Below are positions 1 through 6,879 of a stretch of DNA of 64,000 nt, one piece after another. The notes below the pieces were generated by a model. That model had not been told where the DNA came from and ran no database searches. It worked only from the letters and a program-made list of their open reading frames with translations. The DNA comes from Verrucomicrobiaceae bacterium (GTDB lineage Bacteria; Verrucomicrobiota; Verrucomicrobiia; Verrucomicrobiales; Verrucomicrobiaceae), in assembly GCA_947466075.1 (NCBI GenBank), contig CANIBP010000022.1, positions 20,013 through 84,012 of the forward strand, written 5' to 3'. Numbering within the stretch: position 1 is the first letter of the stretch; the number at the start of each line of letters is the position of its first letter. A program made the translations under genes and the position numbers.

Positions 1-421
1 TCGCCACGCCGCGTTTTACATGATCATGATAAAGCTGCCCGCGTAATGCCGGTTTCAGCTCTTGGTTGTAGAGATAATACGAGGCTGCGTTGTAGGCCAT
101 GTGCCACGCTGCTTCTTCCCAATACCGTGAGTTGCGCGGCTGTAGGCGAGTCACCAGCTTGTAGAGGTTGTCCACCTTCGCCCAGTTCACGTAGGTGAAT
201 TCCACATGCGCGCGCAGTTGAAAAATGCACGCCGCCAGTCCACGCAGGCCACCGAGTGATGCTGCAATGCCCGCCTGTCCGAGATCTTCTCCCACGCCGA
301 GACGTATCGGCTCCTGCAGCATTCCATGCGCTCGCAAATCGCGCGTCACATGCTGCTCCAGTGGCAGTTTCACCACGCCAAAGATCAGCAATACCGCGAG
401 CGCCTGGAGTTTTCGATTCAT
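1..421 (-). CDS. Hypothetical membrane-anchored protein, 3' part cut by window edge
   Basis: This reading frame is not in the ORF track because it runs off the left edge. It begins with an ATG that overlaps the TGA of the ABC permease upstream (ATGA), so the two genes are probably translationally coupled. About 140 residues are visible. A short hydrophobic stretch near the N-terminus (LAVLLIFGVV) could be a membrane anchor or signal. Further on, NWAKVDNLYKLVTRLQPRN and WEEAAWHMAYNAASYY look like tetratricopeptide-type helices. Its place as the third gene after an ABC ATPase and permease suggests an accessory role to that transporter. No family is recognised with certainty. Confidence 0.6.
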   Translation of the reverse strand, partial: MNRKLQALAVLLIFGVVKLPLEQHVTRDLRAHGMLQEPIRLGVGEDLGQAGIAASLGGLRGLAACIFQLRAHVEFTYVNWAKVDNLYKLVTRLQPRNSRYWEEAAWHMAYNAASYYLYNQELKPALRGQLYHDHVKRGVA

Positions 422-1341
422 AGCTCCTTCTCCGCGAACACCAGATGGGTGATGAACATGTACACCGTCACATAGATCGCCGCGAGGCTTGTCATGTTGA
501 GCACCGCTGACCACGGCACAATCTCGCCGTTCACCACGCTGTCCACGATGTCGAACTGCGCCAGATCGGGGCAGATCGCAGCCAGCAGCAGTGCGGCCGC
601 ACGGCCAGTCATACCGGAAAGATTCGGCGTGAAGAAGAACTCGCGGATCAAAGCTTCGCCGTGGCCGATGATCGTGACGCAGAACGTGATGACGATGGTG
701 AACAGCGTCGAACTCGCGATGCTCGATAGCAGCAGCGCCACGGTGGTCACCACCGTCGCTTTCAAAAAAATCGCCCATACCGCCCAGTGCAAGTTCCAGG
801 TCAACCCCTGCCTTGCCACGATCTCACGCATCTGCGTCACCGCTTCTGCGGAATCCATTTTCTCCATCCGCAGATGGTTAACGGCTTCATCAAACAGCAG
901 CGACTGCCTCATCCACAGAATCAGACTCAAAATAGCATCCATCACAATCAAGCCGCCGCCGATCAGCATCAGCACACCGATCAGCTTGCCGAGCAGGTAA
1001 TCAAAGCGCGGCACCGGCTTCGACAGGATGGTGTAGAGCGTGCGATCCTCCAGATCCTTCGGCAGCAGCAACGCCGTGGAGACGACGCCAATCACGATGC
1101 TGAAAATCTGCAACGCTCCCAGTGTCACGCTTTTCAACAAGCTGAGCTGCTGCTCGGGATTGATGACGGAGAACGCAAAACCCGCACCGACCGCCAGCAG
1201 GCAGAATAGCACGAGAAACGCGAGAATCTTCATGCGGATGAGCTGCGTCACCGTCGCCATCGCCATGGTCCAGACACGCTGCGGCGAGAAGCGCACCTTG
1301 GGCGTTTTTGCAGCAGCAGAACTGGTTGTGGCGTCGCTCAT
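418..1341 (-). CDS. ABC-2 type transporter permease
   Basis: A 307-residue polytopic membrane protein, the likely membrane-spanning partner of the ATPase encoded just upstream. After about 30 polar residues comes a first hydrophobic helix (ILAFLVLFCLLAVGAGFAF). The segment LPKDLEDRTLYTILSKPVPR is the cytoplasmic coupling-helix region typical of ABC-2 permeases, and several more hydrophobic helices follow (LLGKLIGVLMLIGGG, TVVTTVALLLSS). The gene overlaps the ATPase stop by 4 nt and the next gene by 4 nt, so it sits in a tight operon. The substrate cannot be read from the sequence; export of a lipid, polymer or drug is possible. Confidence 0.85.
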   Translation of the reverse strand: MSDATTSSAAAKTPKVRFSPQRVWTMAMATVTQLIRMKILAFLVLFCLLAVGAGFAFSVINPEQQLSLLKSVTLGALQIFSIVIGVVSTALLLPKDLEDRTLYTILSKPVPRFDYLLGKLIGVLMLIGGGLIVMDAILSLILWMRQSLLFDEAVNHLRMEKMDSAEAVTQMREIVARQGLTWNLHWAVWAIFLKATVVTTVALLLSSIASSTLFTIVITFCVTIIGHGEALIREFFFTPNLSGMTGRAAALLLAAICPDLAQFDIVDSVVNGEIVPWSAVLNMTSLAAIYVTVYMFITHLVFAEKEL

Positions 1342-2201
1342 GACTTTTTCGCTTCGTTCGTGGCTTCGAGGAACAGTCGTTCCAGCGTTGTGCGCGGATG
1401 GCCACTGCGAAGCAGGCGTGTGTCACTGCCGGCGGCCTTCACCAGCGCATCAATCTGCGCGAGCAGGGCAGGGGAGGCGTTCTCGATGACCATCTCGGTT
1501 TGATTCTCCACCGCGATCAAATCCTCCAACCGTCCCTCACGCACCATGCGGCCATGCGCCATGATGCCCACGCGGTCGCATACCTCCTGCATCTGCTCCA
1601 GCAGATGCGAAGTGACGAGCACCGTGATGCCACGCGAGCGGAACTCGATGATCAAATCACGAATCTTCCGCGAACCCGCGGGATCAACGCCTGCCGTAGG
1701 TTCATCGAGCACCAGCAGGCGTGGCTCATGAATCAATGCCTGCGCTAGGCCGAGCCGTTGCAGCATGCCTTTCGAATAACCGCCCACGCGTCGTGTCGCG
1801 GCGTCTTCGAGGCCGGTCAGCGCCAGCATCTCGGAGGCACGCTCTTTGAGCTTTGCACCACGCATGCCGCACAGGCTGCCATAAAAGTGCAGCGTCTCGC
1901 GGCCGTTGAGGTGCTTGTAGAAATACGGGTTCTCCGGCAGGAAGCCGACATCGCTGCGGCTGGCCACTTCGGTGCTCGGCACACCAAAGATGCTGGTGTC
2001 GCCTTCGGTCGGCTTTAGCAGGCCCAGGATGACCTTCATCGTGGTTGATTTGCCCGAGCCATTCGGCCCGATCAATCCATAAACCTCGCCCGCCTTCACG
2101 GTCAGCGACAGATCATGCACCGCACGAAACGCCCCTTTCACCAAGGTGCCTTTGAAGACCTTGGTCAGATGGTTGACGGAAACAGCGGGCGTGTCGGACA
2201 T
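1338..2201 (-). CDS. ABC transporter ATP-binding protein
   Basis: A 287-residue ATPase subunit of an ABC-2 exporter. Walker A is GPNGSGKSTT (about residue 45), the signature helix is YSKGMLQRLGLAQAL, and Walker B is LLVLDEPTAGVDP, followed by the switch histidine in VTSHLL. The length and the C-terminal extension of about 70 residues are usual for CcmA/DrrA-type ATPases. It is encoded directly before the permease with a 4-nt overlap, and 15 nt after acylphosphatase. The assignment as an ABC ATPase is secure; the transported substrate is unknown. Confidence 0.93.
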   Translation of the reverse strand: MSDTPAVSVNHLTKVFKGTLVKGAFRAVHDLSLTVKAGEVYGLIGPNGSGKSTTMKVILGLLKPTEGDTSIFGVPSTEVASRSDVGFLPENPYFYKHLNGRETLHFYGSLCGMRGAKLKERASEMLALTGLEDAATRRVGGYSKGMLQRLGLAQALIHEPRLLVLDEPTAGVDPAGSRKIRDLIIEFRSRGITVLVTSHLLEQMQEVCDRVGIMAHGRMVREGRLEDLIAVENQTEMVIENASPALLAQIDALVKAAGSDTRLLRSGHPRTTLERLFLEATNEAKKS

Positions 2202-2216: not shown

Positions 2217-2498
2217 TTAATCACGCACAATGCTGAATCCGCGCAAGCCTGTCTCCGCAGGCACCACTTTCATTTCTCGTTCCTTGATGTGCGATCCCAG
2301 GCTGCTCTGCTGAATGTCTTCGAGAAAGGCATCCAGCTCATCGGCCTCAAAAGCCTGCGCCATGAGATGCACACGGCCATCCGGCAGATTTTTCACCCAG
2401 CCGGTCACATCGAAGCCGGAAGCGATTCGTTTGGTGCTGTAGCGAAATCCCACGCCCTGGACGTGGCCTTTATAAAAAACTTGTTTGGCGGTCATCAT
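2217..2498 (-). CDS. acyP: Acylphosphatase
   Basis: A 93-residue cytosolic enzyme that hydrolyses acyl phosphates such as 1,3-bisphosphoglycerate. The family signatures are intact: GHVQGVGFRYSTKRIA, with the catalytic arginine in the phosphate-binding loop, and GWVKNLPDGRVHLMAQ, with the catalytic asparagine. Its length matches the family (about 90-100 residues). It overlaps the stop of the upstream coiled-coil gene by 4 nt and is followed closely by the ABC ATPase, so it is co-transcribed with them, although no functional link is evident. Confidence 0.92.
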   Translation of the reverse strand: MMTAKQVFYKGHVQGVGFRYSTKRIASGFDVTGWVKNLPDGRVHLMAQAFEADELDAFLEDIQQSSLGSHIKEREMKVVPAETGLRGFSIVRD

Positions 2499-3952
2499 TT
2501 CATCAAAAGCTTCAACGCGGCGCGTGCCTGCTCGCTCGCCACATCAATTAACACCACGCCGGCATCATCGCGATTGCGCAGCAGGCTCACGAAGCGGCCT
2601 TGCGCGGTGAATTCGGCCTCGCCTTTCGTGTCGTAGCGTTGTTTGAGCGAGTTCAGCATCGCCTTGTAAAACGCATCAGCGGACGACTTGTCCATGAACA
2701 GCGTCTGCCATGCCGCGTGATCTCGTTTTGCGCCGCCATCCGCCGCCCAGGCGAGGAAACGATCTGCCACAAGACCGCGCGTGCCTGCACCAGCGGCTTC
2801 ATCTTCGTTGTACATGCGCAGAGCCGTTGCACAGACGAATTTGCCAAGGCGGTCGTCGAGAATCGGCAGCACACCACTGAGCTTCACGTCATCCAGCTTG
2901 ATCTCCACCGGCGCAGGCCGTTCGGGATTGATATACACCTCGGGTTCGATCACTTCCGCCGTGCTGATCGGCGGGCGGCTGTAGGCGGCGTTCAACTGCG
3001 CGAAATTTCCCGCGCTGTGCAGCGTCTGCGCGAAATCAAAGCCACGGCTGAACGGGAACAGTGCCATCTCACGCAGAAAAGCCGGCATCGGCACTTGGTT
3101 CAGCGGATGATCCGGGTCTTCGGACGGCAGATCGTCCTTGGGAGCCGATGCTGGATTTTGCAGCGAGTGGAGAAAGCGCGTGAGCCCTGCATCGCCGCAG
3201 ATCAACGACTCGCGTGCCAGGCGCATGTCCGTCGTCAGCGGTCCGTGCTGCGGTTGAAACAACGTGCTGCCGTACTCGCGCAGCAACTGGCCGAAGGCGA
3301 TGCCCATCGGCTCGTTCGAGGTCACCGACGGACCGGAGGCTGTCGAAGGATCAACCGTGAGCATCGTTTCCGACTCCGCGTCATACCAGCCGCCGAGCTG
3401 GCGTGCCAGCAGCGCCGCGCGCAGCGGCAGCGGATCAATTGCTTCGGGAATCCAGCCGAGTGCCGCCAGACCGCGCGTGAGCTTCTTCGCCTCATCATTC
3501 GGCTGCTGCTGTTTCAACCACGCGAGGATCGCCTTTTCGACCTCTTCCTGGCTCACCGTCGTCGTCACCATCGGCAGCGCATGCAGCTTGCGCATCTTCA
3601 TCATCTCCAGGCCCATGCCGACAAAATCCGGGGCCACGCCATCGTCCTTCATGTCGATCTTCGGCACGTTTTTCATGCCCAGCGTGCCGAGCTTTTGCAG
3701 CAATTGCGCATTCTCATCCTTCAGCACGTCGTTCTGACCTTGCAGGTACTCGATCTGCCCTTGCAGCAGCACGATCTGCTTCTGCAAATCTTCCGCGCTG
3801 CCGTTGGTCACGTTGATGACATTGATCGGCGTCGCTTCCGGCTTGGCTGCCACCACCACCGGCTTTTCCGGCTTCACACCCGCCAGAAAAAACGCCACAC
3901 CTCCTCCCAGGGCCAGGAGAATGACCAGCAATGCGGCGGGGTTGAGCTTCAT
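2495..3952 (-). CDS. Membrane-anchored coiled-coil protein with a degenerate metalloprotease-like domain
   Basis: A 485-residue protein. Residues 5-25 form one hydrophobic helix (ALLVILLALGGGVAFFLAG), followed by a short linker and a coiled coil (about 52-92, LQKQIVLLQGQIEYLQ). The rest resembles bacterial zinc-peptidase-like proteins that carry HExxH, then an EGDA motif, then an 'AGG...N..Y..PP.ST..I.HPE.Y' block. The last block is recognisable (GNFAQLNAAYSRPPISTAEV and EPEVY), but HExxH is replaced by IAFGQLLREYG (about 218-228) and EGDA by CGDA (252-255). All expected metal ligands are therefore missing. I infer a non-catalytic periplasmic scaffold. It is the first gene of the acyP-ABC operon. 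Confidence 0.7.
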   Translation of the reverse strand: MKLNPAALLVILLALGGGVAFFLAGVKPEKPVVVAAKPEATPINVINVTNGSAEDLQKQIVLLQGQIEYLQGQNDVLKDENAQLLQKLGTLGMKNVPKIDMKDDGVAPDFVGMGLEMMKMRKLHALPMVTTTVSQEEVEKAILAWLKQQQPNDEAKKLTRGLAALGWIPEAIDPLPLRAALLARQLGGWYDAESETMLTVDPSTASGPSVTSNEPMGIAFGQLLREYGSTLFQPQHGPLTTDMRLARESLICGDAGLTRFLHSLQNPASAPKDDLPSEDPDHPLNQVPMPAFLREMALFPFSRGFDFAQTLHSAGNFAQLNAAYSRPPISTAEVIEPEVYINPERPAPVEIKLDDVKLSGVLPILDDRLGKFVCATALRMYNEDEAAGAGTRGLVADRFLAWAADGGAKRDHAAWQTLFMDKSSADAFYKAMLNSLKQRYDTKGEAEFTAQGRFVSLLRNRDDAGVVLIDVASEQARAALKLLMK

Positions 3953-4029
3953 GTGTCATTCATAGAACAGCCCGCCGATCATCTCCAGTTTTCTCGTTGG
4001 ACGCGGTCAATTTCGCGCCACCATGCCGC

Positions 4030-4872
4030 ATGCAGCACTGGCGCTTTGGTTCCCACGACCTCGATCTCACCGATCGCGGCCTCATCATGGGCATCGTCAA
4101 TGTCACGCCCGACAGTTTTTCCGATGGCGGCCGCTATCTCGACACCGGCCGCGCCGTCGAGCATGCGCTCGCCTTGATCGCCGAAGGAGCCGACATCCTC
4201 GACATCGGCGGTGAATCCACCCGCCCCGGCGCTGAACCCGTCGAGGAAGCCGAGGAACTGCGCCGCGTGCTGCCCGTCATTCGTGCCGTGCGTTCACAAA
4301 CACAGACGCTCATCTCCATCGACACCATGAAGGCCGCCGTCGCTCGTGCCGCGCTCGATGCCGGGGCCGACATCATCAACGACGTCACCGGCCTGCGTGG
4401 CGATGCCGCCATGCTGCGTGTCGCCGCCGCATCCAGCGCCGGCATCGTCGTCATGCACATGACCGGCACGCCGCAGACCATGCAGGCGAATCCGCATTAC
4501 GACGACGTTGTCACCGAAGTGCGTTCATGGTTTGAAAACCGCCTGCAACTGCTCGAAAAAGAAGGTGTCGCCCCCGAACGCGTTGTGCTCGACCCCGGCT
4601 TCGGCTTCGGCAAGACCCTGGAACACAACCTCACCCTCATGCGCGAGTTGCCGCAGATCTCCGTGTCAGACCGGCCGCTCCTCGTCGGCGTCTCCCGCAA
4701 ATCCATGATCGCCAAAGTGCTTCATTCCGATGCCATGGAAGACCGCTTCTGGCCCACCATCGCCCTCAGCGCCTACGCCTGCGAACACGGTGCCCGCATC
4801 GTGCGTGTGCATGACGTGAAGCCGAACCGCGAAGCGCTGCGGATGATGGAGGCGATTTTAGCCGGCGCGTGA
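4030..4872 (+). CDS. folP: Dihydropteroate synthase
   Basis: Condenses 6-hydroxymethyl-7,8-dihydropterin pyrophosphate with p-aminobenzoate in folate synthesis; a cytosolic TIM barrel. The diagnostic motifs are present: IMGIVNVTPDSFSDGG (pyrophosphate loop), DIGGESTRPGA, DIINDVTG, HMTGTP, LDPGFGFGKT and GVSRKS. From the ATG at 4030 the protein is 280 residues, the usual size; a TTG at 3997 in the ORF track would add 11 residues with no family support. The gene is divergent from the coiled-coil operon. Its last 92 nt are repeated in degenerate form at 6143-6234. Confidence 0.95.
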   Translation: MQHWRFGSHDLDLTDRGLIMGIVNVTPDSFSDGGRYLDTGRAVEHALALIAEGADILDIGGESTRPGAEPVEEAEELRRVLPVIRAVRSQTQTLISIDTMKAAVARAALDAGADIINDVTGLRGDAAMLRVAAASSAGIVVMHMTGTPQTMQANPHYDDVVTEVRSWFENRLQLLEKEGVAPERVVLDPGFGFGKTLEHNLTLMRELPQISVSDRPLLVGVSRKSMIAKVLHSDAMEDRFWPTIALSAYACEHGARIVRVHDVKPNREALRMMEAILAGA

Positions 4873-6274: not shown

Positions 6275-6733
6275 CTATCGAATAATCTCCAGCATCCCTG
6301 ACGCGCCTGAAGGCCATGATGCACCTTCTTTGACCCACTTCGTGAGAATGGCGTACTCGTCCTTGGTCAGCCTCTCGCCCACGGCAGGCATGACGCTGAC
6401 GTTTTGATGGGTGGAAGCCGTATTGGCAACGAGCAGGCTCTTCTCCGGGTGCCCCGGCACAATGTAAGCACCCAAGGCTCCCGAACGCATCGCCTGCGTG
6501 CGGTTTTCGAGGCTCATGTGGCCTTTGAGTGCCTTGCGGTTGTGGCACATGACGCACTTTGCTTCCAACACCGGCTTTACATGCACCACGAAATCCACTG
6601 GGCCTGTCTTGGCCGCATGGATCGCTTCCTTGCTCAGCACGTTTTCGCCCAGCGGTTTTGTCTCGGGATCAGGCGGTGTAGCGCATGCGGCTATGAATAG
6701 GATGCAGAGTAGGTATAAAAAAACTGATTTCAT
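6275..6733 (-). CDS. Mono-heme c-type cytochrome domain lipoprotein
   Basis: I start at the ATG at 6733 because it opens directly into a lipoprotein signal, MKSVFLYLLCILFIAACATP, with a lipobox before Cys17. The mature part carries one heme-binding CVMCH motif in VKPVLEAKCVMCHNR and a likely axial methionine in SVMPAVGERLT. The layout matches the 'planctomycete cytochrome C' module, here stand-alone (about 152 residues) rather than fused to DUF1549/DUF1553. It probably sits on a membrane facing the periplasm and carries electrons. It has no obvious operon partner and is divergent from the next gene. Confidence 0.8.
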   Translation of the reverse strand: MKSVFLYLLCILFIAACATPPDPETKPLGENVLSKEAIHAAKTGPVDFVVHVKPVLEAKCVMCHNRKALKGHMSLENRTQAMRSGALGAYIVPGHPEKSLLVANTASTHQNVSVMPAVGERLTKDEYAILTKWVKEGASWPSGASGMLEIIR

Positions 6734-6879
6734 GGCGCGACAGAACAACAAATGATCGGGCATGCAATGTGTCTGTTTGTGCATTTTTTAAGTCATCGCA
6801 TTCCCAGCTGGAAATTAGTGTCCAATATCGGCGATCTAGAAGCTTGTGCTTGGGCTCCAACCTATCCTAGAATTCATCA

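Follow-up and report, generated by a model that had tools for sequence, protein, structure and literature searches.

What kind of protein is encoded by the gene at positions 2495 to 3952 of the window (the whole 64,000-nucleotide stretch of Verrucomicrobiaceae DNA that was analysed), and what might it do next to the genes of an ABC exporter? An earlier note described it as a membrane-anchored pseudo-metalloprotease and suggested that such a dead protease might act as a scaffold or regulator of the exporter. The ORF is real and encodes 485 amino acids on the minus strand, running from 3952 down to 2495 (ORF coordinates), a point that the earlier note left unstated. The gene is present as a single copy in its own genome.

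An HExxH-type domain on a membrane anchor

The protein consists of three predicted parts. Residues 5–25 (3878..3940, minus strand) form a helix in the AlphaFold model, made from the hydrophobic sequence PAALLVILLALGGGVAFFLAG, that would cross the membrane; a hydrophobic N-terminal helix is also found in members across the order Verrucomicrobiales. It is followed by a long helix predicted to form a coiled coil (residues 53–91; 3680..3796, minus strand), so that both N-terminal elements proposed from the sequence recur in the model. Matches to the MreC, FtsB and leucine zipper profiles are confined to this N-terminal part, and a sequence search against solved structures returned only coiled-coil or chance matches. 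The remainder, residues 110–485 (2498..3625, minus strand), is a single domain modelled with pLDDT mostly above 90; for the protein as a whole, the mean pLDDT is 90.2, with the membrane helix, the coiled-coil helix and the domain all confident.

This domain is homologous over its full length to the Hvo_1808-like superfamily of HExxH proteins. A profile of the family, aligned with hhalign to a profile of six HExxH proteins, matched over 364 columns with 99.7% probability and an E-value of 2.5e-25, bearing out the HExxH-like block order that had been recognized by eye. A profile made from 22 family members alone (A1) detects HExxH relatives from other classes of the phylum Verrucomicrobiota at E-values of 1.8e-27 to 6e-13. 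The NCBIfam model of the Hvo_1808 family surface protein, NF038145, matches residues 238–351 with E 3.5e-10, at 39.7 bits against a curated cut-off of 200 bits, which no protein of the same genome exceeds; the HExxH relatives match the same model at 1e-19 to 1e-43. Together, the A1, hhalign and NF038145 searches place the homology far above chance. No Pfam family covers the domain. The late block NAAYSRPPISTAEVIEPEVY (residues 321–340; 2933..2992, minus strand) aligns with “PPQSTEQVLHPEK” of the intact relatives, as had been proposed, with Glu336 replacing the His of LHPEK, and GLVADR (residues 393–398; 2759..2776, minus strand) matches their conserved GWxGDR.

An AlphaFold model of one HExxH relative (L135; pLDDT 82, made from six sequences) has the helices and strands of the domain in the same order as in our protein, the two models being compared by element order. 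The earlier note expected a gluzincin-like fold. When such a gluzincin- or thermolysin-like fold was sought with Foldseek, neither model had a match in the PDB at E ≤ 0.001, so the models neither support nor exclude the gluzincin label; the weak matches returned were to PknH/TiME domains and, for the HExxH model, to 3cmn.

Loss of the metal site across the Verrucomicrobiales

The state of the metal site was counted in a 67-row alignment of six HExxH rows and 61 diverse rows from the Verrucomicrobiales. The six sampled HExxH relatives all have HE[LF]xH, with the first His in column 218; at this place our protein has IAFGQ (residues 218–222; 3287..3301, minus strand). Where all six have the Glu of EGDA, the likely third metal ligand, it has Cys252 in the sequence CGDA (residues 252–255; 3188..3199, minus strand). 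This Cys is nearly private to the source species, most relatives having Ala or Gly.

The question raised in the earlier note, whether orthologues also lack the ligands, can be answered for the order as a whole: the metal site is lost in all 61 rows. His218 is kept in two of them, Glu219 in seven, and His222 and Glu252 in none, so that a complete HExxH occurs in 0/61; Tyr301, present in 6/6 intact rows, is kept in 3/61. Eleven other positions (D242, A246, G253, P290, G304, P328, G370, D397, W415, A425 and F428) are kept in 92–100% of rows. Predicted ligands that are lost while structural-looking residues stay are the pattern of an old pseudoenzyme, unlike that of random decay.

The loss also appears to be stepwise, with intermediates visible among the aligned sequences. 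Relatives outside the Verrucomicrobiales carry an intact HExxH. Inside the order, one protein (L123) reads HELARALADQHF, in which the first His and the Glu remain; this intermediate (L123:6216-7652) has HELAR, and its second His and the Glu of EGDA are gone. Others (L125 and L131) retain ALQDQHF or AIQDQHF with the His pair absent; ALQDQHF is what members of family f81 other than L123 keep. The His of LHPEK is present in 19/20 rows of families f81, f82 and f84 and in 0/32 rows of the protein’s own family, where Glu or Asp takes its place.

A maximum-likelihood tree separates the HExxH rows from all others by a branch with support 98/88. The tree is midpoint-rooted and has long branches; a single loss is consistent with it if the root lies on the HExxH side. 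Most likely, there was one loss of the metal site, no later than the base of the Verrucomicrobiales. No close member with an intact HExxH was found among 240 genomes of the order, nor was any orthologue in the same operon with an intact HExxH, the finding that the earlier note had named as grounds for dropping its claim. One genome of the order does encode an HExxH protein of a remote subfamily (L181:4694-6310; HELTH, with AHELTHALQDQ and IEGHA; E 1.8e-9 to the 67-row profile). An intact paralogue in the same genome was considered as well and rejected, the only candidate being a remote HExxH ORF of 291 amino acids and of another kind (L150).

The metal-site-free form is the rule in the order, not an isolated dead copy: orthologues are present in 62 of the family’s 68 genomes, and 113 of the 240 order genomes have matches. 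By Nei–Gojobori counting against nine relatives, dN/dS is 0.05–0.26 for the whole gene and 0.04–0.22 for the domain only, the ratios for the last three relatives being rough because dS exceeds 1. These values indicate strong purifying selection. The missing motif and the weak, below-cut-off match to NF038145 might suggest a decaying or accidental ORF, or a chance resemblance to HExxH proteins. Such an explanation is highly improbable, being contradicted by the strong purifying selection, the orthologues in 62/68 family genomes, the hhalign E-value of 2.5e-25 and the high-confidence fold. Since the loss is common to the whole order, the gene is better seen as a long-kept non-enzyme than as a broken gene.

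The term pseudopeptidase is thus well supported on sequence and model: the HExxH-family fold is predicted to be kept, the catalytic residues are lost and the gene is maintained. The original description as a membrane-anchored pseudo-metalloprotease holds, given the homology to HExxH proteins, the loss of all predicted ligands, the order-wide extent of that loss and the purifying selection. “Dead” here rests on loss of the motif, because the HExxH relatives are themselves only putative peptidases.

The neighbouring exporter and a second dead branch

The acylphosphatase gene acyP (2217..2498, PF00708, E 5.4e-21) starts four bases inside the end of the pseudopeptidase gene, and is followed on the same minus strand by an ABC exporter ATPase (1338..2201, PF00005, E 3.9e-31) and an ABC-2-like permease (418..1341, PF12679, E 2.6e-3, under the Pfam cut-off) whose orthologues are present in 226/240 genomes of the order. 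The acyP and exporter genes named in the earlier note are thus there, the permease with a match under the cut-off. Next comes the start of a helical-repeat-like protein (1..421, minus strand) that runs off the window; it has no confident Pfam match and belongs to a conserved neighbour cluster (c7) that comes after the permease in several genomes. On the other side is a divergent folP (3997..4872, plus strand), a dihydropteroate synthase-like gene named from its sequence, which starts 45 bases from the pseudopeptidase gene and, by synteny, is kept there in many relatives.

At other loci too (L123, L144, L054), the genes follow one another as folP, pseudopeptidase, acyP, ABC ATPase, ABC permease and repeat protein. 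This arrangement is probably ancestral, because it is found in distant families (L123 and L144 in f81; L053/L054 in f1). Of the 96 distinct loci that extend far enough to show it, 57 have acyP directly downstream; since the 96 also include loci of HExxH proteins and paralogues, true orthologues have it more often than this.

A few other genes were seen around these loci. A secreted protein of about 200 amino acids with tyrosine/aspartate-rich, repeat-like stretches and no Pfam match is encoded between folP and the pseudopeptidase in other Verrucomicrobiales families (L116:5051-5704, L117:7550-8305, L123:7668-8324, L138:4781-5431, L144:4982-5665) and is absent from the pseudopeptidase’s own family; its apparent clustering with the pseudopeptidase was an artefact of overlapping and antisense ORFs that joined clusters. 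In several families (L144:9932-11689, L123:1383-3206, L054:9021-10750), the genes for the ABC permease and the repeat protein are followed by genes for metallophosphatase-like and glycosyltransferase-9-like proteins, so named from sequence. At 6275–6784 of the window, on the minus strand, is a small lipoprotein-like, cytochrome-like protein with a CxxCH haem-binding motif (CVMCH).

Does the pseudopeptidase, then, specifically serve the ABC-2 exporter encoded downstream, as a partner or regulator that works on the periplasmic face of its permease? The shared strand, the four-base overlap with acyP, the ABC genes that come next and the identical, probably ancestral order in the distant families f81 and f1 speak for such a role, as does a dead paralogue that adjoins an exporter of another type. 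However, orthologues keep the ABC linkage only in part: the permease is adjacent in 23/60 family genomes that hold both genes, a lower bound because some unlinked cases are split over different contigs of fragmented assemblies, and in four genomes (G016, G017, G060 and G061) the two genes share a contig but are separated by 26 kb to 2.8 Mb. Moreover, the permease is found in 226/240 genomes of the order and the pseudopeptidase in 113/240; therefore, the exporter cannot depend on the pseudopeptidase in general. The constant linkage or co-occurrence expected of an accessory subunit was not found. The pseudopeptidase has a real but loose connection with the exporter next to it, the proposal of a scaffold or regulator of the ABC-2 exporter is weak on these counts, and a dedicated partnership appears rather unlikely.

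The paralogue belongs to a second branch, in which the same domain, also without HExxH, is fused to an N-terminal DUF3299 (L061:5087-6970, L143:2083-3807, L187–L193). It adjoins a MacB/FtsX-type ABC permease, an ATPase and a small lipoprotein-like protein (L061, L143). Close relatives occur in 10/240 genomes of the order, and among the ten loci inspected the neighbouring permease is on the same strand in eight and on the other strand in one, the remaining locus being cut by a contig end. The branch thus shares with the pseudopeptidase the dead domain and the ABC link, but differs in its DUF3299 domain, its exporter type and its restriction to about ten of 240 genomes. Because this second dead branch also lies beside an exporter, metal-site-less Hvo_1808-like domains might be a recurrent building block of bacterial ABC exporters, with an ABC-2 and acylphosphatase branch and a DUF3299 and MacB/FtsX branch that would both provide periplasmic non-catalytic subunits. 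We consider so general a role doubtful.

Proposed function and comparison with known systems

The reading that we favour, and consider fairly probable, is that the pseudopeptidase works without catalysis as a scaffold or binding protein, anchored in the membrane and facing the periplasm. Its domain would descend from an Hvo_1808-like HExxH protein whose metal site was lost in an ancestor. The C-terminal domain would have kept the fold of such a protein while losing its metal site; the N-terminal helix would anchor it in the inner membrane; the coiled coil would either oligomerise the protein or keep the domain at a distance from the membrane; and the former peptidase domain would bind peptide, protein or envelope as a scaffold or adaptor. 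Sequence and model provide the evidence for the anchor and the coiled coil; the location in the periplasm, the oligomerisation, the binding role and the single loss we infer.

Newly conserved polar residues (D281, H312, H412, R259 and R410) could point to a new active site instead of pure scaffolding. The protein might then be a new, non-peptidase enzyme, or bind another cofactor through newly conserved residues of the old cleft, consistent with a DPDxP motif and with a set of family-specific, nearly invariant polar positions (D109, D281, R259, H312, H412, R410 and Q319). Most of these residues are, however, absent from the other dead families of the order (H412 being partly common), and Foldseek returned no PDB fold match that points to an enzyme, making a new activity improbable next to the scaffold or binding role proposed above.

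Hvo_1808 of Haloferax is a secreted, cell-associated lipobox protein for which no enzymatic test was reported (PMC2945643). Its family (NF038145) shares the homologous domain and block order with the pseudopeptidase, and the extracytoplasmic location of the Haloferax member agrees with the one proposed here (PMC2945643), but the pseudopeptidase lacks HExxH and EGDA and has a membrane helix and coiled coil as anchor in place of a lipobox signal. The HExxH relatives from other classes of the Verrucomicrobiota (L134, L135, L136, L137, L139, L141 and L182) have the domain and its G, P, GDR, W and F positions in common with it. Unlike the pseudopeptidase, they keep HE[LFY]xH and mostly also EGDA and the STEQxLHPEK block, and they have neither the long coiled coil at the N-terminus nor adjoining acyP or ABC genes. 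A shared exporter linkage in HExxH members was considered and rejected, the ABC ATPase near L139 and L141 being sugar-importer-like and not adjacent.

Bacterial pseudopeptidases are little described. The inactive metallopeptidases covered by a 2024 review are mostly eukaryotic cases (PMC11266112), and no case from the Verrucomicrobia was found in the literature library searched. The order-wide series of metal-site loss is graded: other classes have HELxH, some families retain HELAR or ALQDQHF as remnants, and in the pseudopeptidase’s own family nothing is left. Data on synteny and selection accompany this series. Tests in a cultivable group can draw on the likely point of loss, on the intermediates and on a possible partner exporter.

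Several known pseudopeptidases pair with an active homologue (PMC11266112), whereas the genome studied here yielded no close homologue with an intact site. The known examples, such as the inactive ADAMs, FtsHi, Gone early and MPP alpha, belong to other peptidase families and are mostly eukaryotic, but like the protein described here they have lost their metal ligands and kept the fold, and they serve binding, scaffolding and regulatory roles (PMC11266112).
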